From positions 1 to 64,000 of the forward strand of contig NZ_JACJFI010000001.1 in assembly GCF_014164505.1 (NCBI RefSeq): a stretch of DNA of 64,000 nt. The letters run 5' to 3'. A program made the position numbers and the translations under genes. The stretch is from Shewanella sp. SG41-4 (GTDB lineage: Bacteria > Pseudomonadota > Gammaproteobacteria > Enterobacterales > Shewanellaceae). This document shows, one piece after another, positions 12,718 to 34,594 of the stretch. How positions within the stretch are numbered: position 1 is the stretch's first letter; each line of letters starts with the position of its first letter. Below the pieces are notes generated by a model. It was not told the origin of the DNA. It made no database searches and worked only from the letters and a program-made list of their open reading frames with translations.

Positions 12718-14295
12718 CTACACTATCGGTTGAAACGCGGTTAACGAATCAAGCATGGTTGCATTGCCTAATCCTTGTCCTGGGGCAATTGACGTAAATT
12801 GGCTTTGTTCGCCATGTAGAGCCATATAATTTAGCAATACGGTTTCTACCAACAAGTTAACGTTATTGGCCGACGGGGCTGACGCGGTATCAACGGATGC
12901 ATCACTGCGCATAAAACCAATTTGTTGTTTTCTGGCCATTTGGTCGGCGCTGCCACCCATTAATAGTGGTTTGCCAGACGGATTATAAACCAAAAAGAAT
13001 GACGCGCCTGTTGATGAGTTATCGCCAGTCCATTCGCCTTTACCGCGCCCTTCCATGGAGTCATCGATGCGGCCATTGCTAGCAACTGAGCCATCACTAA
13101 ACACGTATAACATTAACGGCATATTGCGACGTGAAGCATATTCTAAACACGCGCCCATGCAGCGACCAGCTCGTAAATCTCTTAACTCACCTGTGGCGCG
13201 CTCGCCAGTGTGATAGTCAAACCCCCCCATGGTGACCGTGCCCGCACCTGAAAAGCCATTAACCACTAACTTCATGATTGACGCTGTTTTTTGGAACTCA
13301 GACTCTGAGTCAAATTCATTAATCCCAAAAATGCCGCCAGGACCGACAATATCAGGGTCTAACAATGGGTTTAATGTTGATGGGTCGCCAAAACGGTCGG
13401 CAAGATCGGCACTTTTAACATAACCACAATTAACCAAATCTTTAATCACATCACCGCGGGTAACTTGCGTGTTCACTGCCGCCATTTTTTGAGCGCTAAT
13501 ACGTTGAATACTTTCCATTACGGCCACAGCATCTCGTTGCGACAATAAACTGAATAAATCACCTACATCCACTAAACCCGTTACGTCTGAAGGTCGGTCA
13601 ATTTTAGTGGGCCGTTTGCTTAAATCAATAAAGTTGGTGGGCGCCATTGAATTGCCGCCTGAGTCAGAATTACGCGACCCCACTAGCGGCATTAACGAAC
13701 CGTTCGCCCCTGCTGCCGCGATAGCATACATAGGATTGTGTGGATTATTGCCCGTGTCATTGTCTGAGCGATTGGGGATCACAGCACCGTTGATACGCGA
13801 TGCGGTATCAGATGATACTTTCTCTAAAATCCCGCGTAAAAATGCTGAGTCAGAGTGAAACGCCAGCCCTAAATCAGTATTAATAAAATCAGACATCCCC
13901 GCATTAGGGTTTGCAATAGACGGAGCCATATCACCTGGTAAACCCAGTTTGTTATAACCAGCCGTAGATAAGAAATCTTGCTGCCCGCCAGCGCCGCCAA
14001 CCAACACATTAGAGCCCGCAATATTGGCACCACCGGCTAAATCGAAACTAATAAACGGAATTTTGCCCGCCCCTTGTACGCTGATGCCACAAGAGTCTCT
14101 TAATGCTTCAAGATCGGGCGATAACGCCGCATGGGCATTGTTAGGGTTAGCAAATAGGCTAAATAGTGACAAACCAGCAACTGCAGCGCCGCCTTTGTAC
14201 AAGCCTGTCGAAATAAAATCTCGCCTAGTCATCGGCTTACGGTGATCAGCAAACAACAATGGACTGTCTGGATGAAGGTGCTTAGTTCTAGTCAT
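12718..14295 (-). CDS. Tat-exported DUF1501 family protein
   Basis: A 525-residue protein with a twin-arginine signal: TRRDFISTGL at residues 23-32, then a hydrophobic stretch ending near NAHA. The mature part has DUF1501-like features: a Gly-rich segment following the signal (DLAGGANIAGSNVLVGG), GGFDYHTGERATGELRDL and a VFSDGS segment. DUF1501 proteins belong to the alkaline phosphatase/sulfatase-like superfamily and usually travel with cytochrome-like exported proteins, as here. Database names such as 'GspF' for relatives are not supported by this sequence. It is the last gene of a three-gene minus-strand operon; AAGGA precedes the start. Confidence 0.75.
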   Translation of the reverse strand: MTRTKHLHPDSPLLFADHRKPMTRRDFISTGLYKGGAAVAGLSLFSLFANPNNAHAALSPDLEALRDSCGISVQGAGKIPFISFDLAGGANIAGSNVLVGGAGGQQDFLSTAGYNKLGLPGDMAPSIANPNAGMSDFINTDLGLAFHSDSAFLRGILEKVSSDTASRINGAVIPNRSDNDTGNNPHNPMYAIAAAGANGSLMPLVGSRNSDSGGNSMAPTNFIDLSKRPTKIDRPSDVTGLVDVGDLFSLLSQRDAVAVMESIQRISAQKMAAVNTQVTRGDVIKDLVNCGYVKSADLADRFGDPSTLNPLLDPDIVGPGGIFGINEFDSESEFQKTASIMKLVVNGFSGAGTVTMGGFDYHTGERATGELRDLRAGRCMGACLEYASRRNMPLMLYVFSDGSVASNGRIDDSMEGRGKGEWTGDNSSTGASFFLVYNPSGKPLLMGGSADQMARKQQIGFMRSDASVDTASAPSANNVNLLVETVLLNYMALHGEQSQFTSIAPGQGLGNATMLDSLTAFQPIV

Positions 14296-14428
14296 TGTTG
14301 AATCCTTTTTGTGCCCGTATTACGGCTATATCAGTTGCATAAGTTAATCGTGAAAACGTCAATCCAGCAACCGTTTGCCTTGACTGCTGTAAGGTTGATG
14401 GTATCAATCGCTGTAAATATCGTTTCAT
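14288..14428 (-). CDS. 46-residue coupled small ORF
   Basis: A short open frame in the gap between the LamG/haem gene and the DUF1501 gene. It has a strong ribosome site (GGAGG, seven bases before ATG), and its stop overlaps the DUF1501 start as ATGACTAG. The peptide is basic (MKRYLQRLIPSTLQQSRQTV...) with no clear membrane segment. The leader GGAG-CGACAGTATGAA closely resembles the one before the first gene of the operon. It may be a real coupled peptide or a leader that sets DUF1501 translation. Coding status is unproven. Confidence 0.4.
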   Translation of the reverse strand: MKRYLQRLIPSTLQQSRQTVAGLTFSRLTYATDIAVIRAQKGFNND

Positions 14429-14439
14429 ACTGTCGCCTC

Positions 14440-16878
14440 CTATTGCACTAGCATCACGGCACTAGCCAATACGGCTGCGCAACTAGACTTAGCGATAGTA
14501 CGGGTGCGCTCGGCAGTACAAGTGCCACTACAAACCGACAGACTGCTAACCAAGCTATCCAGCTCATTGTAAACTGCACTTTGGCTTGGCTGACTGGCTA
14601 GCGATAACGGCATAAGTTGGTTAATTAACGGGTTCAATAAATTGGCGCGCTCAGTGGTATTTAACGCCACACTAGGTACGGCAGTAAAGTCCACATCTGG
14701 GAACCAATTACTGCGAATCGTGTTGTCTTCAATCGCAGTATCACAATAGGCAATGGCAAGCTGGGTAATGCCCATTTGCTGAGCTGAAATAAAGGTTTCA
14801 ATATTTTCAAGACTCGGTAATTGGCGTTTAACTAATTGATAGGTGTTAAATACTTTAGTCGACTTCTGGTCAACGCCCGTCAGCATACTCATACTGTGAT
14901 TGATTTCAGCAAAATTACGCACACCGACTTGAGCCGATTGAGTGGTTGCAGGCAACTCGGCTGGGGTAACAAATACCCCAGGTAACACCACATTGGTGTG
15001 ATCGCCTAATTGTTCAAAGGTTAAGAAAAACTCATCCAAATTAGCGCCTTTTTCAAGGGCGATAATAGTACCCAACGAAGATATTGAAAACGGCTCTGCA
15101 ATCGCTTGCCCTGCCGATACTGATAAATCGAGATTCGCGTATGACTGGCCTTGAGCACTTTCTTTACCGTTAATACCGATACGTAAGCCTTTTAACGCAA
15201 AGCTGTCTGCTACTGGCGTACCGTCAATGTTGACAATAGCAGCATTACTAAACAAATAGCTGTAGTTATCAAACTGACTGACTTCAAACATGACGTAGGT
15301 ATTGGGAAGATCAATTAAATGACTAATCGAGAACAATAAAAAGAACTTTTCACCGACTCCAACATTATAATTTTGCTGTGCTTGCTCAGGTGCTAGTACC
15401 CGATTATAAATGGCTAATAAGCGAATATCGCCTTGCCATACATGCTGGTTTGACGCTTCTCTACCCAAAATAAGCGCGAAGCTGTCGTCCCAATTAGCCA
15501 GTGGCGCAATGTCTTCATCGACCACATCAATCAATTGACCATTAACGTAAATACTGCGGCCAGTGGTGGCATTGTAAGTCATCACGACGTGCTGCAATGT
15601 GGCTTGTAATACCTCATCCGCATCTGGTGTACTTAATGCTGGCTCGCCATTGGTACTAGATGCCTGAGTGCGCAGCATAAAGTCATAATTATATTGAGTT
15701 TGGCCTAAGGTAAAATTACGTGCGCTATCTCCCGCAGAATAGGTCACTATTCTGGCTGGACCCTCTTGAGTTACATTATTAGGTGTCACCCAAGCCTCAA
15801 CAGAAAACTCACCTGTTGCGGTAATTAAATCATGCAGTTTTTTGCTGTTAGCGGTACTCGCCTGCGCTTTACCGTTAGTAAACGACAAGCCCCAACTGCC
15901 CAACCAATCTACATCACCAGTTAAGGTCAAATTAGCGGCTGGAGATATGCCTGAGGTGTCATAAGCAATGCTGCCCTCACCTGTTTTAAATTGATATAAA
16001 GCAATTACGTCAGTTTCAAAACGGCCACCACTTGAGGCGGTAATGCCATCGGTTAAACGTAATGACTTTGACACCACCATGTCTGGTGAAATCTCATCGA
16101 GTTCAATGCCATCACTGAGCGCCATAATGGCATCGCGCATTTCAATGCTGTCGTCTACACAATTGCTCCAGCAGTTATGAAACTCCGAACCTAAACGCAC
16201 CACAAGCCTTGATTGAGCAGGGTCGTCTAAATTAATCACTCCTTTGGCGGCTTCATAAGCTTGGGTAACATCGGTGCTGGCAAAAAATGGCGACTGTGGA
16301 GATTGCGCACCTTCATTATGGCAAGACACACAATATTGATTCACGATGGGATAAACGTGCTGACTGAATAAGCTGCTGTCGTCAGGAAAGTTTTTACTTG
16401 AACCAGGATCGCGGATAATTGGCGCGGTAAGTTCAATGGTGTTAGCACTGCTAACACGCTCGTCGGCCCATAACTTGACCCATTGAGTCATGGTTTCGCC
16501 ACATGCTGAATCACTGGCTAACCAGCAATTATGCCCACCGGCCACTTTATTGACTAAACGCGACGCCTTAGGATCAGATAAATCTACCAATGGATTGGTG
16601 GCGGCATAAGCATCGTTAACGTTATTACGACTGGCAAAATATGGCGCTTGATTACCTTCGGTATGGCACGCACCGCATTTGTCTTGGGTCGAGATATTAT
16701 CCCACAACGATGCTTTGTATTTTTGAATATCAGCCGTTGCTGCTGCAGGGCCGGTATATACGTCAGATTGCGGAATTTGTTGCGCAGGCGGATTCTTTTC
16801 AACATCCCCGCCACCACAAGCAGAAAGCCCGATGATTAATGAGGCAATAACAAGGCCTTTAGACATTAAATATTTCAC
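14440..16878 (-). CDS. LamG-domain lipoprotein with two haem-c motifs
   Basis: An 812-residue lipoprotein (lipobox LSAC, Cys21). It starts at a GTG two bases after the upstream stop, with GGAGAA before it. Two covalent haem sites are visible: Cys68-x2-Cys71-His72 and Cys183-x2-Cys186-His187, each in a repeated module of about 110 residues that resembles planctomycete-type cytochrome domains. A LamG/concanavalin-like domain follows at about residues 290-510 (FSVEAWVTPNN, RSIYVNGQLID, LLAIYNRVLAPEQAQQNY). The C-terminal 300 residues are unassigned and include a CSGTC pair. It probably sits at the outer membrane or cell surface as an electron-carrying or binding protein. Confidence 0.75.
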   Translation of the reverse strand: MKYLMSKGLVIASLIIGLSACGGGDVEKNPPAQQIPQSDVYTGPAAATADIQKYKASLWDNISTQDKCGACHTEGNQAPYFASRNNVNDAYAATNPLVDLSDPKASRLVNKVAGGHNCWLASDSACGETMTQWVKLWADERVSSANTIELTAPIIRDPGSSKNFPDDSSLFSQHVYPIVNQYCVSCHNEGAQSPQSPFFASTDVTQAYEAAKGVINLDDPAQSRLVVRLGSEFHNCWSNCVDDSIEMRDAIMALSDGIELDEISPDMVVSKSLRLTDGITASSGGRFETDVIALYQFKTGEGSIAYDTSGISPAANLTLTGDVDWLGSWGLSFTNGKAQASTANSKKLHDLITATGEFSVEAWVTPNNVTQEGPARIVTYSAGDSARNFTLGQTQYNYDFMLRTQASSTNGEPALSTPDADEVLQATLQHVVMTYNATTGRSIYVNGQLIDVVDEDIAPLANWDDSFALILGREASNQHVWQGDIRLLAIYNRVLAPEQAQQNYNVGVGEKFFLLFSISHLIDLPNTYVMFEVSQFDNYSYLFSNAAIVNIDGTPVADSFALKGLRIGINGKESAQGQSYANLDLSVSAGQAIAEPFSISSLGTIIALEKGANLDEFFLTFEQLGDHTNVVLPGVFVTPAELPATTQSAQVGVRNFAEINHSMSMLTGVDQKSTKVFNTYQLVKRQLPSLENIETFISAQQMGITQLAIAYCDTAIEDNTIRSNWFPDVDFTAVPSVALNTTERANLLNPLINQLMPLSLASQPSQSAVYNELDSLVSSLSVCSGTCTAERTRTIAKSSCAAVLASAVMLVQ

Positions 16879-16880
16879 GG

Positions 16881-18149
16881 TTATTCTCCCATACAGTAGT
16901 TGCCAACTTCAGCAAACACGCGCTTAAGTTGATATGAGTTCTGTTTAAAAGACGTCGTAGTTGCACTCATTTGTGCAATATCCGCTTGACTTTCTGCGTC
17001 TCGTAAACACACCGTTTTAAACACCTTTTTAACTTGGCATTGGGCAAAGGCATTGCTGTTTGCCAGCTCTTGTCCTAAAGATTTAGCCCCACTACCTTGA
17101 CCTGACAAACTGTTATCCCAACCCAATTTCTGATTAGGTCCTTCGCGCCAGTAATTGTTCCATCTATCGTTTGGCGTGGCATAGCCAAAAGGAAAACTGG
17201 TTGAATTGATATGATACTTACCTTGCACTCGGGTGCCAGTGGCTGGGTCGGTTTGACCGCTGGTGTTGTAAGCTATTGCTCCAGCTTCACCCGTTGGATC
17301 TTGGTCACGGTTAAACTCATATTCATAAAAAGCAAACGCTTGCGCCAGTGGATCCATACCACTGTGACAACTTGAGCAGTTATTGATAAATAAACGGCTG
17401 TCACCACCAGGGCTGCGGCTGACATCTTGGCGAATACGATCGGTTGGGCGGGTGTTGTCTTTTAATGGCTCTAAATCGGTACACAAATGGTTCATTAAGG
17501 TAAAACGAAACATGGCGCGATTAGTGCCTAAATAGAAAAACTCTTTCGCAGCGGCGCGGCTAGTTAACACCCCAGCGGTTGCGTCAGCAGGTAATCCATT
17601 CACACTCGATTGAGTGGTGCGCTCTAAGCCGTCTTTTAAATCAATAAATTGGTCTTCTAACGCTTGATAATGGTCATTATTATTACGATTGTAACCGGGT
17701 AAATTCAAACTGTTTTTACCCACATACACCATGTCTGCTTGCAGAATATCTCTGAAATCAACATCGTCCCTAACCGCACCGATTACCGTGGCAGAATAGT
17801 CATTTAACGGCGCAAAAATGTCTTGATCAATATTGGTCCATGGCGTGGCGAATAATTTCAACGTCGTGGAGTAAAATGCCGGCGTTTCCATTGCTAGGTA
17901 GGCAGCTTCGATGGGTTTACCGTCATCCAGTAATGCTGCCATATTTTGCAATGTGGTTTCAGATGCGGCGACACCGGCTATTCGGTCATGCAATTGTTTT
18001 GCTTGCTCTAAGCTGCCTGCTGCTACGTTGGCCGAGAAAAGGCTAAACACACCAAGTGCTAATACACTCATCAACGTCTTAGAATGCATCTTTTTTCCAT
18101 TATAAGATAATAAGCTGAGGCTTTTTATCGTACGAAGTCGTTGCTTCAT
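16881..18149 (-). CDS. Exported cytochrome-like protein with one haem-c site
   Basis: A 422-residue protein, first gene of the minus-strand operon. One CxxCH site lies at Cys258-Cys261-His262, in CSSCHSGMDPLAQAFAFYEY. This resembles the haem segments of planctomycete-type cytochrome families, where SCHxxMDP is common. There is a choice of start: the ATG at 18149 has an excellent AAGGAGACAGT leader, whereas Met21 begins a better signal peptide (MHSKTLMSVLALGVFSLFSANVAAG). I keep the first because of the ribosome site. Other cysteines near the C-terminus (CQVKKVFKTVC) may form a disulfide. Its operon partners suggest a shared periplasmic or surface complex. Confidence 0.7.
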   Translation of the reverse strand: MKQRLRTIKSLSLLSYNGKKMHSKTLMSVLALGVFSLFSANVAAGSLEQAKQLHDRIAGVAASETTLQNMAALLDDGKPIEAAYLAMETPAFYSTTLKLFATPWTNIDQDIFAPLNDYSATVIGAVRDDVDFRDILQADMVYVGKNSLNLPGYNRNNNDHYQALEDQFIDLKDGLERTTQSSVNGLPADATAGVLTSRAAAKEFFYLGTNRAMFRFTLMNHLCTDLEPLKDNTRPTDRIRQDVSRSPGGDSRLFINNCSSCHSGMDPLAQAFAFYEYEFNRDQDPTGEAGAIAYNTSGQTDPATGTRVQGKYHINSTSFPFGYATPNDRWNNYWREGPNQKLGWDNSLSGQGSGAKSLGQELANSNAFAQCQVKKVFKTVCLRDAESQADIAQMSATTTSFKQNSYQLKRVFAEVGNYCMGE

Positions 18150-18532: not shown

Positions 18533-21190
18533 ATGAGGCCGACTTTGGGCTATAACATTATGATGTTTACGGTAATTACATTGTTATTAGGATGTAACAC
18601 CGAAACAGCGATTAAAGATCAACAGCCTGATCCTGTTCTTGTTGAATATCCTGTAGTTTATATTGAGCGTAATCTAACGGCGGTCGATCAAAACCCTGCA
18701 CAATTTGAACCTCTCAACCCGGCCCTTTTTAATCCTGGTGCCCAGTTACTCATTAAACAAAATGCATTTGCTGACTCCCCTGCAACCAATCTCACAGCAA
18801 CCTTGTTTGGCGCTGAGCAGCTGATTGATATTCGCGATTTGTCAGTATCAGACGATGGTCAACAACTGCTTATGGCCATTCGCGCGCCAGAAATCGAAGG
18901 TGTGGACGACGATGAACAGCCTAAATGGAACATCTGGCGTTATACCGTGGCTAGCCAAACTTTAGAACGGATCATCACGAGTGATATCACGGCAGAGCAA
19001 GGCGATGACTTAATGCCGGCGTTTTTGCCCGACGGCAGAATTATATTTGCCTCAACCAGACAGCGTTTATCTCGAGCCATTTTGCTGGATGAAGGTAAAC
19101 CACAATACACAGCATTAGATGAAAGCCGTGCTAATGAAACCTTTAACATCCATGTGATGGACCCTGACGGCAGCGCCATTCAGCAGTTAACGTTTAATTT
19201 AAGCCACGACTTTTACCCATTGGTACTACAAAGTGGCAAAATTTTATACAGCCGCTGGGATCGAATGGGCGGCGACCACGGAATTAACCTGTACCGTATG
19301 AATCCGGACGGAACAGACAACGAATTAGTATTTGGTTGGCATTCGCATCAATTGCCCCTTGACGGCCAAACCGAATCGATTGATTTTATCAAGCCACAAC
19401 AATTGCCTAGCGGTGAAATATTAATGCTGTTGTCATCACAAGACGACAGCGCGATTCAAAAACGTCCAGTGCTAATTAATATTGACGACTACGTTGACGC
19501 TCAGCAAGCCACTGCCAATTCTGGCGCGCAAGGTGAAGCGATTACCGACGCCGCATTATCAGAATTTAACTTCTCATTTTCTGCCGCATTGTCAGAAAAC
19601 GGTAGAATCAATCATTTATACCCACTACCCGATAACAGCCAGCGCTTTTTAATGAGTTGGGATTTGTGTCGTGTTGTTGTAAATGACATCGTCCGTGCCT
19701 GCGGCCAACTTAGCGCGGAGCAACTTGCTGACGAAAACCTCATTCAAGCCGATCCATTATACGAGTTATGGTTACTCAATAATGCCAACAATACTCAACA
19801 ATTGGTGGCCACCACAACTCAAGGCACAGTGCTAACTGAATCTGTAGTGATGCAACCTAGCGCACAACCAAAAACCTTTATCGCAGACAAAGTGGTAGGC
19901 AACGAACTCGACCCACAGCTAAGTCAACAATTGGCTGGCGCTATCCACATTCGTAGCGTATATGACTTTGATGGCATCGACACCACAGCTAACGCGGGTG
20001 GTATTAGCCGTTTAAGTGATCCTTCACAAACACCTGCGGCTAATTTACCCGCTCGATTTTTGCGAATTGTGCGTGGAGTGCCTATGCCTCCCGATGATGT
20101 GAGAGACATCCTTAATACCGATTTTGGCCGCAGTAATAACCAACTCATGCGCGAAATTGTTGGTTATAGCGCTATTCAACCCGATGGTTCAGTTAAGATA
20201 AAAGTGCCAGCCAATGTCCCGTTAGCCATCAGTGTATTAGACATCAATGGTCAGCGTATTGGCGGACGTCACCGTCAATGGATAACGTTAACGCCGGGTG
20301 AAACCTTGGAGTGTACAGGTTGTCATACCGCTAATAGTCAGCTACCTCATGGTAGATTGGACGCACAAGCAGCCAGCATTAATGTCGGCGCGGTTGGTGG
20401 TTCAGCTTACCCTAATGCCACGAGTAATATCATTCCAGAGCAAGGACAAACCATGGCTGAAGCCGATGAAATGGTGAATGGTCTTGCCGAGCTTAGCGCT
20501 AACATTGAGTACCAAGATATTTGGACAAATCCAGTGTTGTCTGCGGCAAACCCAAGTATTGAATATAGTTACAGTAATTTAGCCACACCTGCGCCAAATG
20601 GCAGTGAGTGCTTTGACAATTGGACTCCCTATTGCCGCATTCAAATCAATTATGTTGAACATATTCAGCCGCTGTGGGACTTAGCCCGACCAGTAATAGA
20701 CGCAACTACTCAAATGCTCGTTGCCGACAACACCTGTATCAGTTGCCATAATATTGTCGATGCAGATGGCGCGGCGCAAGTGCCTGCTGGACAGTTGTCG
20801 TTAATCAATTCGCCGTCAAGCGATCAAGCTGCGCATTTAACTTCTTACCGTGAACTGTTTTTTAACGATGTTGAGCAAGAAGAAGTCGATGGTATTTTAA
20901 TCGACAAATTAGTTGAAGTGCTCGATGCCGATGGCAACGTAGTTTATCAAGTAGACAGTAATGGTGAGCTTATTCTTGACGCTGACGGTAACCCTATTCC
21001 GGTGTTAACCACAGTCAATGTGCCCGCAATTTTATCGACTAATGGCGCGCGTTCAAGTAACACATTTTTTGAGGTGATGAATAACACCACCCATCAAAAT
21101 ATGCTGTCGGCCGATGAGCTCAAATTACTTAACGAATGGTTAGACATTGGCGCGCAATATTACAACACGCCATTTTACTCACAGGACTAA
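18533..21190 (+). CDS. HzsA-related haem-c lipoprotein with beta-propeller
   Basis: An 885-residue lipoprotein (lipobox LLLGC, Cys21). The N-terminal half has WD40-like/TolB-type propeller blades (LMPAFLPDGRIIFASTRQR, FNIHVMDPDGSAIQQLTF, INLYRMNPDGTDNELVFGWH). Two CxxCH sites follow: Cys594-Cys597-His598 (ECTGCHTANSQLPHG) and Cys735-Cys738-His739 (CISCHNIVDADG). This order matches the 'HzsA-related' family, distant relatives of the hydrazine synthase alpha subunit. There is no sign of the other hydrazine synthase subunits, so hydrazine chemistry is not implied. It is probably an outer-membrane-anchored cytochrome heading the plus-strand operon. AAGGAA precedes the start. Confidence 0.75.
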   Translation: MRPTLGYNIMMFTVITLLLGCNTETAIKDQQPDPVLVEYPVVYIERNLTAVDQNPAQFEPLNPALFNPGAQLLIKQNAFADSPATNLTATLFGAEQLIDIRDLSVSDDGQQLLMAIRAPEIEGVDDDEQPKWNIWRYTVASQTLERIITSDITAEQGDDLMPAFLPDGRIIFASTRQRLSRAILLDEGKPQYTALDESRANETFNIHVMDPDGSAIQQLTFNLSHDFYPLVLQSGKILYSRWDRMGGDHGINLYRMNPDGTDNELVFGWHSHQLPLDGQTESIDFIKPQQLPSGEILMLLSSQDDSAIQKRPVLINIDDYVDAQQATANSGAQGEAITDAALSEFNFSFSAALSENGRINHLYPLPDNSQRFLMSWDLCRVVVNDIVRACGQLSAEQLADENLIQADPLYELWLLNNANNTQQLVATTTQGTVLTESVVMQPSAQPKTFIADKVVGNELDPQLSQQLAGAIHIRSVYDFDGIDTTANAGGISRLSDPSQTPAANLPARFLRIVRGVPMPPDDVRDILNTDFGRSNNQLMREIVGYSAIQPDGSVKIKVPANVPLAISVLDINGQRIGGRHRQWITLTPGETLECTGCHTANSQLPHGRLDAQAASINVGAVGGSAYPNATSNIIPEQGQTMAEADEMVNGLAELSANIEYQDIWTNPVLSAANPSIEYSYSNLATPAPNGSECFDNWTPYCRIQINYVEHIQPLWDLARPVIDATTQMLVADNTCISCHNIVDADGAAQVPAGQLSLINSPSSDQAAHLTSYRELFFNDVEQEEVDGILIDKLVEVLDADGNVVYQVDSNGELILDADGNPIPVLTTVNVPAILSTNGARSSNTFFEVMNNTTHQNMLSADELKLLNEWLDIGAQYYNTPFYSQD

Positions 21191-23202: not shown

Positions 23203-23463
23203 ATGATAAACACCTTATCTCCTCGTATCACTGCTTTATCGCTTAAGTGCATTGCGCTATTAAGCTTAATTAGTTTAAGTGGCTGCACGAGTATGGGCAT
23301 TGAGCCTTGGGTTAAACCTTACGAGCGCCAAAACTTAGCCGATCCGATTATGCGCATGAATCGTCACCCAAGTGCCAGTATGCATGTGGCGCACGTACTT
23401 GAAGGTCGAGAATCTTCTCGTGGCGCAGAAGGAACTGGAGGGGGTGGTTGTGGCTGTAACTAA
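23203..23463 (+). CDS. DUF4266 lipoprotein with Gly-Cys tail
   Basis: An 86-residue lipoprotein (lipobox LSGC, Cys28). The mature part has the conserved PWVKPYERQNLADPIM block of DUF4266 and ends in the unusual tail GTGGGGCGCN. The pair of cysteines in a glycine run suggests metal binding or post-translational modification, but no function is known. I used the ATG at 23203 rather than the in-frame TTG just before it. The 3' end overlaps the start of the DUF3570 gene, whose ribosome site lies inside the glycine codons. Confidence 0.8.
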   Translation: MINTLSPRITALSLKCIALLSLISLSGCTSMGIEPWVKPYERQNLADPIMRMNRHPSASMHVAHVLEGRESSRGAEGTGGGGCGCN

Positions 23464-24604: not shown

Positions 24605-24658
24605 TTGCTCGCCTTAAATATTGATACTTTTAATAACGTAATTGCCAAGGCCATAACT

Positions 24659-27475: not shown

Positions 27476-30400
27476 TGTCAGCATCGGCTTATTTATCACC
27501 CGGATTAATCCTAATCAGTGGTATTGCCTTATCAGGTTGTTTTAGCAGCGGTCAGGCTGATTACACTCAACAAGCCAAACGCACTAGCCTAGGCGACTTG
27601 GCCAACAAACGCAGCAACGAAACCGTTGCCAGCGTTGAAATGACCCAAACACAACGCAGTGCCAAGTTGGCTAATATTTATCAGCAACTGCTGACTCTTG
27701 AGCCCGATCCTGAAATCCGGACGCACGTTGAATATCGTTTAGTGCAAATTAATACCGAGTCATTTGAAGCCCAGTCTTATGCTGACCTAGATGACGAGTC
27801 GCAATCTGACAGCCTAGTGTTAGCTCAGTTGACTCAAAACGATGCTGGACTGCAAAAACTAGTCAACGAATATCAGCAGTTATTGCAGCGTTATCCGCAG
27901 CGTCCTGAAAATGAGCACATACAATATCAATTAGCTAAAGCGCTCGATTTACAGGGTAAGTTAGATGCGAGTTTGGCTGAGGTAGAATCATTACTTCGGC
28001 ACTATCCGCAAACAGGTTATCTTGCAGAACTTAATTTTAGGCGTGGTGAGATCTATTACAATTTACAGAATTACCCTGCAGCCATTTCAGCATATCAGCA
28101 AGTATTAACCGCTAATGATAATCAAAAATATCAACTGAACAGTCTGTATATGCTCGGTTGGTCTGAGTTTAAACTCAATCGACTCGCCAATGCTGACAAA
28201 GCATTCTTGCAAGTGTTTGAAGCCTTAGTGGCCAGCCAGCAAAGTAATAGTGATGTTGCAAATTTAACTTCCGACAACTTTGCTTTTGAAAAGCTCGGCA
28301 GCCGCGCGCAAAATTTGGCTATTGATACCCAAAGAGTATTGAGTATTTCATTAAGCCAGCAGCTTCAATCTCAATCGTTAGTCTCCTTGGTCAACGCCAA
28401 TCAATCATTGCCGTATATCAACTTATACCAGCATGTATTGTTTGCCAATTTGGCCCAATTTTTACTCGATAAAAAACTCGACCATGATGCAGAGCTAACT
28501 TATCAGGCATATATAGATTTAGCCCCAGACAATATTTGGGCTGCCCGCTACTCACTAGGCTTACTCGACCTTTATCAACGTCAGGGCAAGTTTGCAGCAA
28601 TGCATAAGCTCAAAAATGACTATGTTAATCAATATGGTCTTAGCAGCACTTTTTGGTTAAATGCCAGCACAGCGCAGCAAGCCGAATTATTGCCACAACT
28701 GCTTAGCTTTAGTGACGAGCATAGCCGCCGTTTGTATGCCGATGCGCAAACTCAGCAAGGTGCACAACGAATTAGCGCTTTCGCACAGGCTGCCAGCGCA
28801 TTAAACACCTATTTACAATTGGCCAAATTGCCTCAAGCCAGCAAGTTACTCACTAAAGATATTCTTAATGACGAGTACTTGTTTGCCGACGCCAATTTTG
28901 AAGCAAAACAATATCAGCAAGCGCTTGCCAGTTATTACGCCATTGCCTATGACACCACATCAACGTCGGCAGCCTTGAGCAAGATACAACAGCAATCGGC
29001 TTACGCAACAACCGTCACCATACGGGAAATCATTTCGCAACATGATCAAAGCCAACAAGGTCACAACCAACAAAAACAAAGTGGTCAAAGTGGTCAAAGT
29101 GGTCAAAGTAATACTGATGATTACAATAAATTCATTTCACAACGTAATCAGCTAGATAAAGACTTTATCAATCAGTATCCATCTGACGAGCGTGCCTTAC
29201 AGCTCGCCAGTAACGCCGCCCAATATTCGTTTGATGCTAAAAACTACACTGACCTTAAAGACTTTACTGATTTTGTATTACAAGCCCACGGCATTCACAC
29301 GATCAATAATGCGGCAAGCTCAGTGCAAACCGTTACGCCGTTGTCAGACTCTGCCCGTAAGCAAGTGCAGTTTGTCAGCCAGCTTTATGCCAATAGCTTG
29401 TATCAGCAAGAGCAATACGCACAGGCTGAAGAGGGTTACATTTTAGCGCTGCAATATACAGACAAGAGCACAGACTCATGGTCTGAAATGCGTAATCTGT
29501 TAGCTTCTAGCATTTACTTCCAGGCCCAAGCGGTTAAACAAACACAACCAGAATTAGCCGTAAGCCAGTTATTACGCGTAGCTCAAGCAGTGCCTGAATC
29601 AAAATACGCGGTTAATGCCGAACTCGACGCTGCAAACCTGTTGCTTGAACAACAACGCTGGCAAGAAGCGGTTGACGTACTAAAGCCGTTTCAACAACGT
29701 AATCCCGACCATCAGTTTAGTGCGGCTATTCCGGCAAAATTAGCTCAATCCTATGAAGCACTTGCCCAGTGGGATTTAGCCGCAGAGCAGTTATTGATTA
29801 TCGTAGCCAAAGAAGATTCTGGTGCGCTGAAGCGTGAGGCCTTGTACACGGCAGCAGAGTATTATTTAAAAGCAGACGATAACAGTAACGCACTCAGCAC
29901 CTTTAGAACTTATGCTAAAACCTATCCACAACCGTTTGATGTGGCACAAGAGGTTCGCTTTAAAATGAGTGAGTTTTATCGCCAAAACGGTGAAGCCAAT
30001 AAGCAATATTACTGGTTTAAGCAAATACTTAGCTTCGATCGCAAACAATTACAGCAAGATGCAAATGCTATTCAGGCTCGCCAAATTGAACTCGCCTCTA
30101 TCGCAGCATTTTCCTTGGGTGAAGCTGAACAACGCAGTTTTGCGGCAATTAAACTCAACGCACCTTTGCAAAAAAGCTTAAAGCGCAAACAAGAGGCGAT
30201 GAAAAAAGCCATTGGTTATTATCAACAAGTGCTCGACTTTCAGTTGGCTAAATTCGTTCCCCATGCGACATACAACCTCGCTGAAATGTATCGCCAACTT
30301 GCAGCCGACATGATGAGTTCACAACGTCCAGGCGACTTAGATGAACTGGCTTTAGAAGAGTACGAGATTTTATTAGAAGAACTGGCTTATCCATTTGAAG

Positions 30401-30558
30401 AGAAAGCCATCGAAATCCACATCAGCAATACCCAAAGAGCATGGGATGATATATACGATCAATGGATAGAAAAAAGCTTTAAGCGCTTGGCACAAATGTC
30501 CCCTGCCCTTTATCAAAAACAAGAGTTAACTCATGAGGTCATCGATGCTATCCATTAA
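27475..30558 (+). CDS. TPR-repeat lipoprotein, 1027 residues
   Basis: A lipoprotein (lipobox LSGC, Cys22) built almost wholly of TPR-like helical hairpins. Typical examples are FRRGEIYYNLQNYPAAISAY, YALGLLD-type repeats, LYANSLYQQEQYAQAEEGYI and EALYTAAEYYLKADDNSNAL. It contains a SGQ linker encoded by a 9-bp tandem repeat (29083-29109). Large TPR lipoproteins of this kind form periplasmic or outer-membrane scaffolds, as in gliding and secretion machines with TolQR-type motors. It starts at TAATG with AAGGAG upstream and overlaps the following gene by 26 bases. Confidence 0.75.
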   Translation: MSASAYLSPGLILISGIALSGCFSSGQADYTQQAKRTSLGDLANKRSNETVASVEMTQTQRSAKLANIYQQLLTLEPDPEIRTHVEYRLVQINTESFEAQSYADLDDESQSDSLVLAQLTQNDAGLQKLVNEYQQLLQRYPQRPENEHIQYQLAKALDLQGKLDASLAEVESLLRHYPQTGYLAELNFRRGEIYYNLQNYPAAISAYQQVLTANDNQKYQLNSLYMLGWSEFKLNRLANADKAFLQVFEALVASQQSNSDVANLTSDNFAFEKLGSRAQNLAIDTQRVLSISLSQQLQSQSLVSLVNANQSLPYINLYQHVLFANLAQFLLDKKLDHDAELTYQAYIDLAPDNIWAARYSLGLLDLYQRQGKFAAMHKLKNDYVNQYGLSSTFWLNASTAQQAELLPQLLSFSDEHSRRLYADAQTQQGAQRISAFAQAASALNTYLQLAKLPQASKLLTKDILNDEYLFADANFEAKQYQQALASYYAIAYDTTSTSAALSKIQQQSAYATTVTIREIISQHDQSQQGHNQQKQSGQSGQSGQSNTDDYNKFISQRNQLDKDFINQYPSDERALQLASNAAQYSFDAKNYTDLKDFTDFVLQAHGIHTINNAASSVQTVTPLSDSARKQVQFVSQLYANSLYQQEQYAQAEEGYILALQYTDKSTDSWSEMRNLLASSIYFQAQAVKQTQPELAVSQLLRVAQAVPESKYAVNAELDAANLLLEQQRWQEAVDVLKPFQQRNPDHQFSAAIPAKLAQSYEALAQWDLAAEQLLIIVAKEDSGALKREALYTAAEYYLKADDNSNALSTFRTYAKTYPQPFDVAQEVRFKMSEFYRQNGEANKQYYWFKQILSFDRKQLQQDANAIQARQIELASIAAFSLGEAEQRSFAAIKLNAPLQKSLKRKQEAMKKAIGYYQQVLDFQLAKFVPHATYNLAEMYRQLAADMMSSQRPGDLDELALEEYEILLEELAYPFEEKAIEIHISNTQRAWDDIYDQWIEKSFKRLAQMSPALYQKQELTHEVIDAIH
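29077..29109 (+). repeat. 9-bp in-frame tandem repeat
   Basis: GGTCAAAGT occurs three times in a row (29083-29109) after a partial copy, encoding SGQ repeats in a flexible linker of the large TPR lipoprotein. It is a likely slippage site whose copy number may vary between strains without shifting the frame. Confidence 0.8.
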
Positions 30559-31336
30559 ATCATTATTTACCTCATCGACACCGAAACTGGCACTATTCGC
30601 GCTAGTAAGCCTTATGCTGTTACCCGGTTGTAGTACGTCACCTAGCGGCACTAACGCCAACAAGCAAACCACTACGGACCCAAGCCTAAAGGGCATGGAC
30701 AAAGACATTGTCGACTTAGTTAGCCTCAATACAAAAAGTGTCAATAACAGCACCAGTATCAGTGCAGGCTCAACAGATAACCGTAATGTGTATCTTGAAC
30801 AAGCCTCACAGCGGTTAGCCGATGTGCCCACATCGGTATTAAATCAATATCAGCAAGCCATTAGCCAAATGAAAAACCAGCAATGGCAAGCGGCGAATAG
30901 TTTGTTTGATAAAGTGATTGTTGCAGAGCCTCAATTGTCGGGCGCCTATGTCAATAAAGCCATCATAGCGATAAATCAGCAGCAATTAGATCAAGCCGAT
31001 GCACTGCTCGCAAAAGCGATTGCGGTTAATAACAGCAATCCTTATGCCCACCAAATTAAAGCGAATATAGCAAGGGTACAAGGCCAGTATGCTCAGGCTG
31101 AGCAAGGTTATTTAACGGCGCTAACTCTGTGGCCTCAATACCCACAAGCACAATTAAATTTGGCGATCTTATTAGAGTTATATCGAGGTAAGTTGTTGCA
31201 AGCCCGCCAATACTACCTGGCGTATTTGGCTAACCAGCCAAATGATGAACAAGCCAAACGTTGGCTCGCTGGCGTAGAAATAAAAATTCAACGCGCAGGA
31301 TTAACATTACCCGACAATGCTAATGGAGCAGGCTAA
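30533..31336 (+). CDS. TPR lipoprotein
   Basis: A 267-residue lipoprotein (lipobox LLPGC, Cys33). A low-complexity Ser/Thr/Asn linker follows the anchor. Three or four TPR units occupy about residues 100-250 (AYVNKAIIAINQQQLDQADALL, PYAHQIKANIARVQGQYAQAEQGY, AQLNLAILLELYRGKLLQARQYY). It starts inside the end of the 1027-residue gene and stops one base before the next start. Its arrangement resembles small TPR outer-membrane lipoproteins that cap multiprotein envelope machines. Confidence 0.75.
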   Translation: MRSSMLSIKSLFTSSTPKLALFALVSLMLLPGCSTSPSGTNANKQTTTDPSLKGMDKDIVDLVSLNTKSVNNSTSISAGSTDNRNVYLEQASQRLADVPTSVLNQYQQAISQMKNQQWQAANSLFDKVIVAEPQLSGAYVNKAIIAINQQQLDQADALLAKAIAVNNSNPYAHQIKANIARVQGQYAQAEQGYLTALTLWPQYPQAQLNLAILLELYRGKLLQARQYYLAYLANQPNDEQAKRWLAGVEIKIQRAGLTLPDNANGAG

Positions 31337-31337
31337 G

Positions 31338-31691
31338 ATGACCATGCAAAAAATATTTCAGGCAACGTGTCGTCTTGGTGCATTGCCGTTGTTTTTAGCC
31401 ACTTGTTTACTGAGTGTCTCAGCTCAGGCTACTGCCAATGATGACACTGAAAAGCAACAAGCGGTGAAACCCACAAGCAACAAACCTGTGGTGATCCAAA
31501 GCCAAGTGACAGGCTCACAAGAGCAACCCAAAGTGCTTTATATTATGCCGTGGCAAGGGATCAATAATCCGATAGACATTAACAACGAAGGCATGCGACT
31601 GACGCTGCCTGAGTTTAGGCCTATCAATCCAAAAGTATTTCGACAACAAGTCAGGGATTTTGCTAGTAGCGCACAAGAAAAAGCTCAATAA
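31338..31691 (+). CDS. Small exported protein, unknown
   Basis: A 117-residue protein from the ATG at 31338, which follows GGAGCAGGCTAAG; an earlier in-frame ATG lies inside the previous gene. A signal peptide ends near SAQATA. The mature part is short and mostly polar, with the distinctive VLYIMPWQGINNP and LTLPEFRPINPKVFRQQV segments. I do not recognise a family. It sits between the TPR lipoproteins and the motor genes and is probably a linker subunit of the same complex. Confidence 0.6.
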   Translation: MTMQKIFQATCRLGALPLFLATCLLSVSAQATANDDTEKQQAVKPTSNKPVVIQSQVTGSQEQPKVLYIMPWQGINNPIDINNEGMRLTLPEFRPINPKVFRQQVRDFASSAQEKAQ

Positions 31692-31832: not shown

Positions 31833-32486
31833 ATGAGTTTTACCGACCATATCATTGCGTTTTTACAAAATGGCGGCCCATTTATCTACCCTATCGCCTT
31901 AGTGTTAGTGGTCGGTTTGGCCATTACCATTGAGCGCTGGTTATATTTAAGCTCTGCACATCGTAGTAACCAGCACGCTTTTGCGCTGATTAAAAATGCC
32001 ATAAAAACAGGTGACATCAATACTATTAGTCAGCATGCACAAAACCATAAAGCGCCTGTGTTTGACGTGTTGCAGTCTGGTATTGCCCGTATATCAAGTG
32101 CAAGTCGCCGTGAAGACGTAGAATACGCCATGGAAGAAACCGTGATGGAATACATGTTACGCCTTGAAAAGCGTACGCCATTTATAGCAACGCTCGCTAA
32201 CATCGCCACCTTATTGGGTCTATTAGGTACCATTATGGGCTTAATCGCAGCATTCTCGGCAGTGGCTAGCGCCGATCCAGCTGAAAAAGCCAACTTATTG
32301 TCTTCTAGTATTTCGGTTGCGATGAACACCACCGCATTTGGTTTGATTACCGCCATTCCGCTGATTTTATTTCATTCAAGCCTACAAACTAAAACGGCAA
32401 CCATCGTTGACTCTATTGAAATGGCAGGCATTAAACTGCTCAATTCATTGTCATTTAACAAGCAAACGGATAACAACCGAGGCTAA
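31833..32486 (+). CDS. ExbB/TolQ/MotA-type proton-channel protein
   Basis: A 217-residue inner-membrane protein with three membrane segments: about residues 18-35 (YPIALVLVVGLAITIERW), 116-138 (ANIATLLGLLGTIMGLIAAF) and 155-175. The family signature LGLLGTIMGLIAAF and the later NTTAFGLITAIPL block, with its conserved Thr residues facing the proton path, are intact. It forms the pentameric stator with the ExbD proteins encoded next. A ribosome site, AGAAGGA, precedes the ATG. The 141-base gap upstream is the largest inside this plus-strand run, so an internal promoter is possible. Confidence 0.9.
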   Translation: MSFTDHIIAFLQNGGPFIYPIALVLVVGLAITIERWLYLSSAHRSNQHAFALIKNAIKTGDINTISQHAQNHKAPVFDVLQSGIARISSASRREDVEYAMEETVMEYMLRLEKRTPFIATLANIATLLGLLGTIMGLIAAFSAVASADPAEKANLLSSSISVAMNTTAFGLITAIPLILFHSSLQTKTATIVDSIEMAGIKLLNSLSFNKQTDNNRG

Positions 32487-33058
32487 TGAGTATGAGACGC
32501 CGTCGTCGCCCCAATACCCAAGACGCAGAACTGGATATCACCTCATTCATGAATTTGATGATCGTGTTAGTGCCAGTACTTCTGCTGAGTTTGGTGTTCT
32601 CACAAGTGCGTATTTTGAATCTGCAATTACCGGTATTGTCAGAAGCTGAACAAGCACAAGATGATCAAGAGCCCAAAATACTCGAACTAGTGATAACCCC
32701 CGCTCGCTTAGCATTAAACTACCCAGCCGGTATGTCACTTAAACAGTTTGAACTGACTGATAAAGGTTATGATTTCGCCGCGTTGTCTGTGTATCTACAA
32801 GACTTGAAGCTGACGTTCCAGCAACAGGGTATAGAAAAGAATGACATCGTATTATTACTCGACCCTGCGGTTGACTATCAAACCATCGTGTCTGCTATGG
32901 ACACTGTGCGATCATTTAAAGCCGTAGTCGCAGCCAATTTGGTTGATGCCGAACTGTTTCCGATGATCTCATTAGGTGATGCTCCGGCCGCTAATGATGC
33001 CGATGCTGCTCAGCCGATACAAGCCACTATTGGAAAACCAGTAGGAGCTAAGCCATGA
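32486..33058 (+). CDS. ExbD/TolR-type protein lacking the membrane aspartate
   Basis: A 190-residue protein with a basic N-terminus (MRRRRRP), one membrane segment (about residues 18-38) and a periplasmic domain. At the place where ExbD/TolR proteins carry the proton-binding Asp (TPFxD pattern), it has Asn23 in TSFMNLMIVLVPVLLL. It may therefore serve a structural role beside the second ExbD. It overlaps exbB by one base and the next gene by four (ATGATG/TGA), so the three subunits are made together. Confidence 0.85.
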   Translation: MSMRRRRRPNTQDAELDITSFMNLMIVLVPVLLLSLVFSQVRILNLQLPVLSEAEQAQDDQEPKILELVITPARLALNYPAGMSLKQFELTDKGYDFAALSVYLQDLKLTFQQQGIEKNDIVLLLDPAVDYQTIVSAMDTVRSFKAVVAANLVDAELFPMISLGDAPAANDADAAQPIQATIGKPVGAKP

Positions 33059-33588
33059 TGAAGCAATCGGCAAGAAGCCGCAGATTAGCTAAACACCACA
33101 AACGCTTAAAAGCCGGTAGCAAACTCAACTTAGTGGCGTTAATGGATATTTTTACCATTTTGGTGTTTTTCTTAATTGTGAATCAATCTGAAGTGCGCAT
33201 ATTGCAAAATATCGAAAAAATCAGTTTGCCCGTGTCTGTTGCAGATGTGCTCCCAGTTGAAAACCTGGTGATTACTGTGTTTACCGACACGGTATTAGTG
33301 CAAGAGCGCCCTATTTGGCAAAAAAGTGCTGATGGTATTGACTTAACTGAACAACAAAATCCAGAGTTTATTAGCACGTTAACAACAGAGTTGACCTATC
33401 AAGCCAGTAAACGCACCGAGCTTAGCGAAACCGAGCAACAAAATGGCCGTGCAGTAACCATTATTGGCGATGCATCAACACCTTATGTGGTGCTTAAGCA
33501 AATTATGACTGCTTGCGCGGCAACCGGTTACCGGGATATTTCGTTAGCGGTTGAACAACAAGCAAAGCAAACTAATGGTGAGGGCTAA
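33055..33588 (+). CDS. ExbD/TolR-type protein with intact membrane aspartate
   Basis: A 177-residue protein with a basic cytoplasmic start and one membrane segment. It carries Asp31 in NLVALMDIFTILVFFLIV, the expected proton-carrying residue. The periplasmic domain ends with the usual ExbD pattern (VTIIGDASTPYVVLKQIMTACAATGYRDISLAVE). Two unequal ExbD/TolR genes after one ExbB/TolQ gene is also the layout of the AglR-AglQ-AglS gliding motor of Myxococcus. Confidence 0.85.
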   Translation: MMKQSARSRRLAKHHKRLKAGSKLNLVALMDIFTILVFFLIVNQSEVRILQNIEKISLPVSVADVLPVENLVITVFTDTVLVQERPIWQKSADGIDLTEQQNPEFISTLTTELTYQASKRTELSETEQQNGRAVTIIGDASTPYVVLKQIMTACAATGYRDISLAVEQQAKQTNGEG

Positions 33589-33589
33589 T

Positions 33590-34594
33590 ATGACAACAGC
33601 AACCTTACACCATCATGAAACCAATCAGAGTTTTAATGATTTAGGCGACTTATTTAAACCCAGTAAACAAGATAAACTGTTTAAACAGATTTTGTGGTTG
33701 TTGCTGTTAGTTTATCTCGTGTTTGCGGTCGTAGTGCCCATGCTTGAACAAGTTGAACTTCCGCGTGAAGTGAAAGAGCAAGTACCACCGCAATTAGCCA
33801 AAATCATCTTGCAAGAAAAGCAATTACCGCCACCGGCCAAAGCAGAAGAGAGGCCAGAGGTGAAACCGCCTGAGCCAGAACCGCTGCCAAAGCCTGAGCC
33901 TGTACCACCAGAAGAAAAGGCTCCAGAAAAGCCCGTTGAACAAGCTGTAAAACCCAAAGTTGTTCAGCCGATAACACGTGACTCAGCAAAAGAGAAAGCC
34001 AGCACATCAGGCTTAGCCGCCATGAAAGATGAGCTTTTTTCGATGCGTGAAGCATTTGATGTTAAACCTGCCGCACAACGAAAACTTGACCAAACGACTG
34101 CACAAGAAGTCAAAGTTAAACGCGACTTGTTGGCTGGCGCCGCGAATAAGCAAACCGACAGTTTGGCCAAATCGACCATAAGCCAAACCGTTGCAGCAGA
34201 ATCGTTAAGTGGCAACCAAACTCAACAAATACGTTTAGCAAAAGAAGAAGTGTTAGCCAGCCAGGGCGCCTCTGCAGAAAAAGCCAGTCAAGCGAGTAAA
34301 GGTGGACAGCGTTCTGAAGCGGCACTTAGGCGCACATTGGAGGCCAATAAGTCTCGGCTTTATTCGTTGTACAATCGTGCACTTCGAAAAGATCCGTTTT
34401 TAAAAGGCAAAGTGATGTTTGAAATTGTCATTCAACCCAATGGCAATATCAGCAAAGTAACGATTAAATCAAGCGAGCTAAATAACGCCAAGTTAGAGCG
34501 TCAATTAACCTTGGTATTACGCTCTATCAACTTCCCAGCAGAGAAAGTCGCGGTAATGACCACTATCTGGGCTATCGACTTCTTCCCGAGTTGA
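33590..34594 (+). CDS. TonB-like energy transducer, AgmX/PglI C-terminal type
   Basis: A 334-residue protein from the ATG at 33590 (GGTGAGGG upstream); the frame is open earlier inside the previous gene. One membrane segment lies at about residues 33-50 (ILWLLLLVYLVFAVVVPM). A Pro/Glu/Lys-rich stalk follows (about 75-120), then an Ala/Gln/Ser-rich helical part, and a C-terminal domain (about 245-334) with ALRRTLEANKSRLYSLYNRAL and GKVMFEIVIQPNGNISKVTI, the AgmX/PglI-type TonB fold. It would pass the motion of the ExbB/ExbD motor to the TPR and outer-membrane parts. It is the last gene of the run. Confidence 0.85.
   Translation: MTTATLHHHETNQSFNDLGDLFKPSKQDKLFKQILWLLLLVYLVFAVVVPMLEQVELPREVKEQVPPQLAKIILQEKQLPPPAKAEERPEVKPPEPEPLPKPEPVPPEEKAPEKPVEQAVKPKVVQPITRDSAKEKASTSGLAAMKDELFSMREAFDVKPAAQRKLDQTTAQEVKVKRDLLAGAANKQTDSLAKSTISQTVAAESLSGNQTQQIRLAKEEVLASQGASAEKASQASKGGQRSEAALRRTLEANKSRLYSLYNRALRKDPFLKGKVMFEIVIQPNGNISKVTIKSSELNNAKLERQLTLVLRSINFPAEKVAVMTTIWAIDFFPS

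Follow-up and report, generated by a model that had tools for sequence, protein, structure and literature searches.

We analysed a 64,000-nucleotide stretch of Shewanella sp. SG41-4 (positions 1 to 64,000 of contig NZ_JACJFI010000001.1, forward strand; hereafter the window) and, within it, a gene block at 12718-34594 in which two known modules, a motor of the type found in the Agl-Glt core complex and a flavinylation set, are joined with haem proteins (a homologue of HzsA, the hydrazine synthase alpha subunit, a LamG-domain dihaem protein and a monohaem protein) and with a protein exported by the twin-arginine (Tat) route. A first-pass annotation, made by a model from the letters alone, had counted 15 genes in two divergent runs. 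Both runs are present, with three genes on the minus strand (12718-14295, 14440-16878 and 16881-18149) and 15 on the plus strand (18533 to 34594); the count was too low, as 18 genes are found when the DUF4266 lipoprotein is included. Neighbouring stops and starts, which were said to overlap or abut through most of the plus run, do so from the DUF4266 gene to the TonB-like gene, with the exception of a 141-base gap upstream of exbB. The further claim that every product carries a signal peptide, lipobox, Tat signal or membrane segment agrees with the presence of a hydrophobic stretch within the first 85 residues of all 18 products (found in a plain hydropathy scan, not with a signal-peptide predictor), of a lipobox pattern in the LamG, HzsA-like, DUF4266 and 1027-residue TPR proteins, of a lipobox read by eye (LPGC) in the 267-residue TPR protein, and of a Tat motif in one protein. 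Searches of Pfam and NCBIfam confirm the families that had been named, i.e. HZS_alpha, DUF4266, DUF3570, ExbB, ExbD (twice) and the AgmX/PglI-type tail, along with LamG, SH3, the outer-membrane barrels, the TlpA-like thioredoxin and TPR. The apbE-like gene at 10727-11776, outside the interval, belongs to the block as well. The genes are as follows.

10727..11776, plus strand: ApbE-type flavin adenine dinucleotide (FAD):protein flavin mononucleotide (FMN) transferase (Pfam ApbE, 1.6e-81)
12718..14295, minus strand: Tat-exported protein of no known family (twin-arginine motif TRRDF; no Pfam or NCBIfam family)
14440..16878, minus strand: LamG-domain dihaem lipoprotein (Laminin_G_3, 7.1e-22; lipobox)
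16881..18149, minus strand: monohaem protein, weakly PSD2/PSCyt3-like (one CxxCH)
18533..21190, plus strand: HzsA homologue, a lipoprotein with a beta-propeller, an HZS_alpha middle domain and two CxxCH (HZS_alpha, 1.8e-16)
21248..21988, plus strand: SH3-domain outer-membrane barrel (SH3_3, OMP_b-brl)
21958..22617, plus strand: outer-membrane barrel of the OMP_myx_plus family (TIGR04565, 162.2 bits, cut-off 60)
22695..23198, plus strand: TlpA/ResA-like periplasmic thioredoxin (AhpC-TSA, Redoxin, ResA-like)
23203..23463, plus strand: DUF4266 small lipoprotein with a C-terminal CxC (PF14086, 1.1e-20)
23450..24604, plus strand: DUF3570 outer-membrane barrel, predicted ApbE substrate (PF12094, 2.7e-41)
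24605..25219, plus strand: g24605, exported core-complex marker protein of no known family (profile matches in 62 of 276 Gammaproteobacteria)
25220..27475, plus strand: TPR-like periplasmic protein, GltC-like by position only (weak TPR-type match; clear TPR in a homologue)
27475..30558, plus strand: large TPR lipoprotein of 1027 residues, GltD-like by position only (TPR matches; lipobox)
30533..31336, plus strand: TPR lipoprotein of 267 residues, GltE-like (TPR; weak GltE match, 3.7e-06, among other TPR models)
31317..31691, plus strand: small exported protein with a conserved QEQPKVLYIVPWQ-type motif (alignment)
31833..32486, plus strand: ExbB/TolQ-type proton channel, AglR-like (MotA_ExbB, 1.1e-28; tolQ, 4.2e-19)
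32486..33058, plus strand: ExbD-type protein with Asn replacing the usual membrane Asp (ExbD, 4.4e-10)
33055..33588, plus strand: ExbD-type protein with the membrane Asp kept (ExbD, 3.2e-11)
33551..34594, plus strand: TonB-like transducer with an AgmX/PglI tail, GltG-like (NF033768, 62.1 bits, cut-off 40)

To collect relatives, a three-row alignment of g24605 was scanned across named genomes, and the best 80 of 149 loci were kept. Gene order was compared for 12 genes (the divergent LamG and monohaem genes, and the HzsA-like, TlpA, DUF4266, DUF3570, g24605, large TPR, ExbB, two ExbD and TonB genes), leaving out the SH3-domain barrel, the second small barrel, two TPR genes, the gene at 31317 and the Tat gene, the last of which is for the most part located beyond the stretches examined. 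The ordered co-occurrence of cytochrome, DUF and motor genes, which the first-pass annotation had proposed as a check, was found in 65 of the 80 loci, all of which keep the full 12-gene order. The plus-strand run from the HzsA-like gene through TlpA, DUF4266, DUF3570 and g24605 to the large TPR gene is intact in 72 loci, and the run from the large TPR gene through ExbB, ExbD and ExbD to TonB in 71. Many marine bacteria are among the carriers, which include Shewanella, Colwellia, Thalassotalea, Ferrimonas, Marinobacter, Hahella, Alteromonas, Glaciecola, Pseudoalteromonas, Oleiphilus, Kangiellaceae and others; Endozoicomonas sp. G2_1 (L041) has the whole set including ApbE in identical order, at identities of about 31 to 84 %. 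Incompleteness is in five loci (L042, L043, L068, L077 and L100) a matter of the contig ending inside the block, and L096, which ends soon past its 31317-like gene, shows no LamG or monohaem match. Other loci vary in content or layout: L066 and L090 have ApbE downstream of TonB and lack DUF3570, L098 carries the LamG and monohaem genes with no HzsA-like or DUF3570 match, and in L057 and L101 one run comprises the motor genes along with those for the monohaem, LamG, Tat and ApbE proteins, and the HzsA-like gene diverges from it.

As the 80 loci had been chosen by one gene, a separate, evenly drawn sample of 276 Gammaproteobacteria, out of 300 intended, was searched with g24605, DUF3570 and HZS_alpha profiles, which found matches in 62, 73 and 43 genomes, respectively. 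Both g24605 and HZS_alpha are present in 40 genomes, HZS_alpha alone in three, g24605 alone in 22 and neither in 211 (Fisher p 1.2e-28, a value that overstates independence because related genomes are treated as independent; the safer figure is the count of families, 26 of which have both markers, 13 further ones g24605 only and two HZS_alpha only). The cytochrome and motor halves are thus not independent of each other in most genomes, whereas their independence is what the first-pass annotation had named as a refutation: 40 of 43 HZS_alpha genomes carry the motor marker, and in two of the three others the proteins (at L133 and L134, where no motor is found) are distant relatives, as they score only 62 and 85 bits against the HzsA-like profile. 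In 30 of the 40 genomes the two markers lie no more than 30 kb apart; some genomes keep the content with the markers separated by 7-29 kb, frequently in opposite orientation, or placed on other contigs. The Tat protein follows the pair, being found in 35 of the 40 genomes with both markers (in G076 by a 97-residue fragment), in two of the 22 with g24605 only and in none of the three with HZS_alpha only, and, with G105 excluded, 27 of 36 genomes have its gene no more than 30 kb from that of g24605 or of the HzsA-like protein. An ApbE orthologue, defined by a score of 290 bits or more and searched for in 62 of the 65 marker genomes (the three with HZS_alpha only being omitted), occurs in 27 of the 40 genomes with both markers and in four of the 22 with g24605 only; it is within 25 kb of the g24605, HzsA-like or Tat gene in 24 of 31 genomes, at a place in the locus that varies. 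A phylum-wide search gave matches in 12 of 299 genomes, all in the same class. Chance does not account for the block, given the 65 of 80 loci with the full order and a link that persists in genomes sampled without regard to g24605. There is good support for its being one unit, and the coherence attributed to it in the first-pass annotation stands.

The same annotation had recognised the haem proteins of the block and missed its flavin side. TlpA, DUF4266, DUF3570 and ApbE constitute a flavinylation module described in 2021 (PMC8238504), and the DUF3570 protein of Chlorobium is covalently flavinylated by ApbE (PMC8238504). The block contains all four components, i.e. a TlpA-like protein, a DUF4266 protein with its CxC (the C-terminus reads GGCGCN in 74 of 74 aligned rows), a DUF3570 protein with two putative sites and ApbE, whose gene is separated from that of DUF3570 by 11.7 kb occupied by other block genes and one further open reading frame (ORF). 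The start of DUF3570 at 23450 was picked by alignment, the longest ORF starting at 23372. Two tandem Dxx..A[ST] sites are present in 74 of 75 DUF3570 rows, including that of the window, and the remaining row is gapped there. At site 1, rows of Alteromonas and Glaciecola and two of Hahella read SGAS, those of Marinobacter SAAS and those of Shewanella SSAS; site 2 is mostly ATAS or STAS. Going by these residues, flavin would be attached to the DUF3570 protein of the block. In comparison with the published module (PMC8238504, as far as its consulted text describes it), the DUF3570 protein of the window is of a distant subfamily, has a changed motif and stands beside a motor and cytochromes, and DsbD is encoded outside the block, with one copy elsewhere in the same genome.

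A second TlpA-DUF4266-DUF3570 cluster is found in the same genome (L106, 204-3211), together with an ApbE-like gene recognised by eye and with no motor in its 3.7 kb. Its DUF3570 protein has a canonical TGAS site and scores 600.8 bits against the DUF3570 profile, versus 126.8 bits for the copy in the window. A role of the TlpA-DUF4266 pair in cytochrome maturation was considered and rejected, as the pair also accompanies DUF3570 and the ApbE-like gene in L106, where no CxxCH is seen by eye in the listed ORFs.

From 21 alignment rows, DUF3570 is predicted to fold into a barrel with 16 long strands, the chain ending in Phe (mean predicted local distance difference test score, pLDDT, 88; predicted template modelling score, pTM, 0.80). 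By strand count, both flavin sites lie at or near the loop 78-90, on the side opposite the termini, and the long loops 196-224 and 287-313, which carry invariant residues, are on the same side as the flavin loop. Provided that the termini face the periplasm, which is the usual arrangement, the model would place the flavins at the outer mouth of the barrel or in its lumen. A sequence search returned no solved relative at E 0.1, and the nearest solved folds are transport barrels (siderophore receptors, FadL and AlgE) with TM-scores of about 0.45.

The haem proteins, too, keep their motifs. The LamG protein has two CxxCH in the window and in 72 of 73 homologues, the 16881-18149 product one in the window and in 73 of 73 homologues, and the HzsA-like protein two, both of which are kept in 73 of 74 homologues. 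The planctomycete character that had been ascribed to these cytochromes finds weak support, since the PSD2 (E 0.012) and PSCyt3 (E 0.096) matches of the monohaem protein fall short of the Pfam thresholds and there is no family match for the Tat protein. The latter is 58-84 % identical to three homologues; its invariant or nearly invariant stretches are NNPHNPMY, DYHTG and WTGDNS, and a possible role, as a guess, is that of a metal-site enzyme.

The HzsA-like protein shares with the hydrazine synthase alpha subunit the propeller, the HZS_alpha middle domain and the CxxCH motifs in identical order. Its profile matches 5c2v_A at 3.7e-15 in three collinear stretches, and a fold search with its predicted model (mean pLDDT 75, pTM 0.50) places 5c2v_A on top at 2.3e-23, albeit with low TM-scores (0.30/0.34), followed by TolB at 4.8e-11. 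In contrast to the alpha subunit, it is a lipoprotein, it is distant (44.6 bits against the NCBIfam equivalog, whose cut-off is 800 bits) and no beta or gamma subunit was matched by the Pfam scan of the block products. Anammox-like chemistry was rejected on these grounds. Hydrazine synthase alpha is reported to have more than 600 fold hits, with no other confirmed function among the top ones in the portion of the source used here (PMC12758564).

The motor half had been called part of an undescribed machine. However, the genes at 24605-34594 fit the core complex of Luciano 2011, in which gltC, D, E and G, aglR, Q and S and one added gene occupy one region in Gammaproteobacteria, Geobacter and Fibrobacter, function not being given in the text consulted (PMC3169522). 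What is alike is the ExbB-ExbD-ExbD motor, the GltG-like transducer with an AgmX/PglI tail and three TPR proteins, all in one run in Gammaproteobacteria (PMC3169522, PMC3858216). The added gene is said to have no homologue in Myxococcales (PMC3169522); it could be g24605, for which no Pfam family above cut-off and no PDB match at E 1 was found, or else the gene at 31317-31691. The protein encoded by the latter, with its QPKVLYIVPWQ-type motif, also occurs in stand-alone core complexes. The likeness to Agl-Glt proposed in the first-pass annotation is borne out by the transducer, all 24 members of which have the AgmX/PglI tail and match the GltG model in part (35.8 bits for the window protein, far under the 650-bit cut-off). 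The transducer has a hydrophobic N-terminal stretch followed by a proline-rich stretch and the tail, and no solved relative was found by sequence at E 0.01. The assignment of GltC, GltD and GltE follows gene position only, and TPR matches are promiscuous. In the large TPR family, all 23 members match the YbgF model and one the GltC model, which is matched by none of 18 members of the other TPR family. The membrane Asp of ExbD and TolR carries the proton. At this position the first ExbD (32486-33058) has Asn in 72 of 73 rows and Ser in one, whereas the second (33055-33588) has Asp in 72 of 72, so the channel would hold an unequal pair. With Tol-Pal the block has in common a TolQ-like channel, a YbgF-like TPR protein and, by fold, a TolB-like propeller; it differs in its haem and flavin parts, in the AgmX/PglI-type transducer and in having no Pal match.

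The core complex has been regarded as a stand-alone machinery and maybe a basal transport machine (Wartel 2013, PMC3858216). Around other g24605 or HZS_alpha matches, 20 stretches of 16-20 kb were examined by profiles. Core genes stand alone in 17 of them; one or two core members are unmatched in L118, L119, L120, L129 and L132, and L136, which begins at a contig end, shows only g24605 and TPR genes. A TlpA-like match occurs in three stand-alone stretches, at 136 bits beside g24605 in L132 and weakly in L127 and L131; perhaps the gene in L132 indicates that the thiol link is older than the cytochrome link. In L128 the core is joined to SH3, OMP, TlpA and DUF3570 genes without HZS_alpha. The neighbours of 12 stand-alone copies, inspected by eye, show no shared cargo, and several look like housekeeping genes. 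Three genomes (G288, G282 and G139) have a stand-alone copy alongside a linked one. A tree of the large TPR protein was built by a quick method from 53 rows (the window, 34 of the 80 loci and 18 further ones) and rooted for drawing only; in it, 29 DUF3570-linked rows fall on one side of a branch with a Shimodaira-Hasegawa-like approximate likelihood ratio test (SH-aLRT) value of 99. Of these rows, 28 show an HzsA-like gene, and the contig of the remaining one, L042, starts downstream of its place. A separate locus of the Shewanella genome, L020, has two adjoining ExbB-type genes that represent a different energiser system.

The block is flanked by genes that resemble, by eye, those of polyunsaturated fatty acid synthesis, namely a pfaE-like gene (9636-10577) and pfaR/pfaABCD-like genes (36422-54833); a PfaR match downstream of the block is found in three of the 80 loci (L022-L024). 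The ORF between the ApbE and Tat genes (11873-12658, 261 residues) has no family and is unmatched at the Endozoicomonas sp. G2_1 locus, where ApbE adjoins the Tat gene. A YHYH-domain lipoprotein is encoded downstream of the block (35007-36110) and is matched in two of the 80 loci. Further away, at 60578-62937, three consecutive genes resemble by eye an aspartoacylase, a RimK-like ligase and a small protease-like protein.

The literature searched yielded no account of the core motor united with the flavin and haem set; among the matches listed no publication has both Agl-Glt and ApbE or flavinylation terms, and DUF3570 or DUF4266 (PF12094, PF14086) is named in one publication. Within that literature, the statement that no described system has this part list stands for the union, both modules being known separately. 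The word 'cytochrome' does not occur in the 2011 core-complex paper, and the consulted parts of PMC3169522 and PMC3858216 name no redox partner; the attachment to a flavin and haem outer-membrane set is what sets the block apart from the core as described there. In Marinobacter atlanticus, an ExbB-ExbD-ExbD-TonB operon is on record whose TonB-like gene was lower in a rubredoxin mutant, with current unchanged (PMC8233155). This electrode operon was considered as the system of the block and set aside, as its identity with the block could not be shown from the text consulted (PMC8233155).

The conserved residues of the flavin sites, the haem motifs and the conserved motor residues, together with the predicted barrel fold, can be combined in the following model. 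Protons would pass through the ExbB channel, which holds the unequal ExbD pair with one Asp and one Asn, and their flow would move the GltG-like rod that spans the periplasm. The rod would then act on the outer membrane by way of the TPR lipoproteins. There, the assembly would have at its core the 16-strand DUF3570 barrel with two covalent FMN set by ApbE, around which the two small barrels, the HzsA-type two-haem propeller lipoprotein, the LamG dihaem lipoprotein and the monohaem protein would be the other parts. The thiol carriers TlpA and DUF4266, the latter through its CxC, would pass electrons to the flavins, so that the route might run from a thiol chain (with DsbD encoded elsewhere) to TlpA, DUF4266, FMN and the haems, or in reverse. 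Strokes of the motor would load, open or shift the assembly, and as a result electrons, or a substrate to be reduced or oxidised, would cross the outer membrane. We infer that the redox part is what the motor acts on and that the two are in physical contact, and the direction of electron flow and the substrate are conjectured in the same way.

On the whole, we lean modestly towards an Agl-Glt-type core motor that is dedicated to an outer-membrane redox assembly. Several observations weigh against this. The flavin motif of Shewanella, SSAS and STAS, departs from the published [ST]GA[ST] (PMC8238504), and the flavin loop of the DUF3570 model is of low confidence. The Fisher test counts related genomes as independent; HZS_alpha is missing from 22 of 62 g24605 genomes, and an orthologous ApbE was not found in 13 of the 40 genomes with both markers. 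Four loci of Hahella and Oleiphilus (L050, L069, L084 and L092) have no ExbB-to-TonB genes behind the TPR genes in the stretch examined, so the seam between the halves does not always fall at the place that had been assigned to it. On the large TPR tree, seven redox-labelled rows (L057, L066, L090, L098, L100, L101 and L128) fall among the stand-alone ones, and the label takes four changes (14.6 in shuffles) on a tree several branches of which are long. In favour of the dedicated motor, pairwise distances at the 65 loci correlate with means of 0.93 between the halves (0.87 to 0.97), 0.93 within the redox half and 0.95 within the motor half, and for far pairs at 0.91 (HzsA-like and large TPR), 0.79 (HzsA-like and LamG), 0.84 (large TPR and ExbB) and 0.78 (LamG and large TPR), yet plain vertical descent can also yield such correlations. 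Finally, no shared regulator site was found when 65 divergent promoter regions were scanned for seven consensus sites against one shuffle each: sites matching at 80 % or better occur in 23 real versus 20 shuffled regions for FNR, three versus four for ArcA and none versus none for Fur, and promoter-like and terminator-like sites are rarer than in the shuffles. A common regulator was rejected, the best matches being about as good as those in shuffles.

These observations leave room for a pair of machines with a common niche or regulon but no mechanical coupling, one transferring electrons by flavin and haem and the other an Agl-Glt core with a general surface job such as placing a polysaccharide or adhesin, which we regard as possible and, all told, doubtful. 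The two would have been kept since both are needed in the same habitat, e.g. in life on particles, a proposition that is just as tentative. Core complexes without cytochrome, DUF3570, DUF4266, Tat or ApbE genes in 17 of the 20 stretches (also without an HzsA-like, LamG or monohaem match) are common enough to indicate that the motor can do without the redox part; the motor-free cluster L106 in the same genome points the same way, as does the placement of g24605 and HZS_alpha on different contigs in 10 of 40 genomes. However, it is a distinct branch of the motor tree that goes with the redox genes, their order is kept at those 65 loci across several families, and the linked copy is more than the general motor alone, because G288, G282 and G139 hold a stand-alone copy besides it. 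Import in the manner of TonB, in which the motor would power the uptake of a ligand (iron, haem or a metal chelate) through the DUF3570 barrel while flavin and haem reduce it at the surface, would account for the VIT1 iron transporter in 25 DUF3570 clusters (PMC8238504) and for the siderophore receptors, FadL and AlgE among the nearest solved barrels. We consider it improbable: the fold scores behind that resemblance are low, no Fur-like site reaches 80 % in the promoter regions, and plain TonB uptake was rejected for want of any TonB-dependent receptor or plug domain match among the 18 products in Pfam. TonB-dependent receptor barrels have 22 strands, not the 16 long strands predicted for DUF3570. 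A surface motility machine of the Myxococcus kind is very improbable in spite of the AgmX/PglI and GltG matches of the transducer and the AglRQS-like ExbB-ExbD-ExbD arrangement. NCBIfam scans, in which the existence of a model for each protein was not confirmed, gave no match to the group A genes gltA, B, F, H, I and K and a GltJ match over the transducer only, and gliding was rejected on that basis; moreover, core genes alone are described as insufficient for motility (PMC3169522).

The dedicated motor and redox assembly may, more speculatively, represent an envelope machine of a new class, with a proton motor that mechanically gates or moves an outer-membrane flavin-haem electron conduit, this being the original cargo of one branch of Agl-Glt cores; we offer this proposal with considerable reservation. 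The Agl-Glt core was described in 2011 from bacteria without known gliding, and the consulted text assigns it no function (PMC3169522). Through the block, one branch of this core is linked to a definite group of flavin and haem proteins, which supplies a clue to the ancestral function of the motor. If the motor does act on the redox assembly, proton-driven motion would be coupled to electron transfer across the outer membrane, of which we know of no earlier case. The same would give a setting to this DUF3570 subfamily, to HzsA-type proteins outside anammox and to a strongly conserved Tat protein that belongs to no family.

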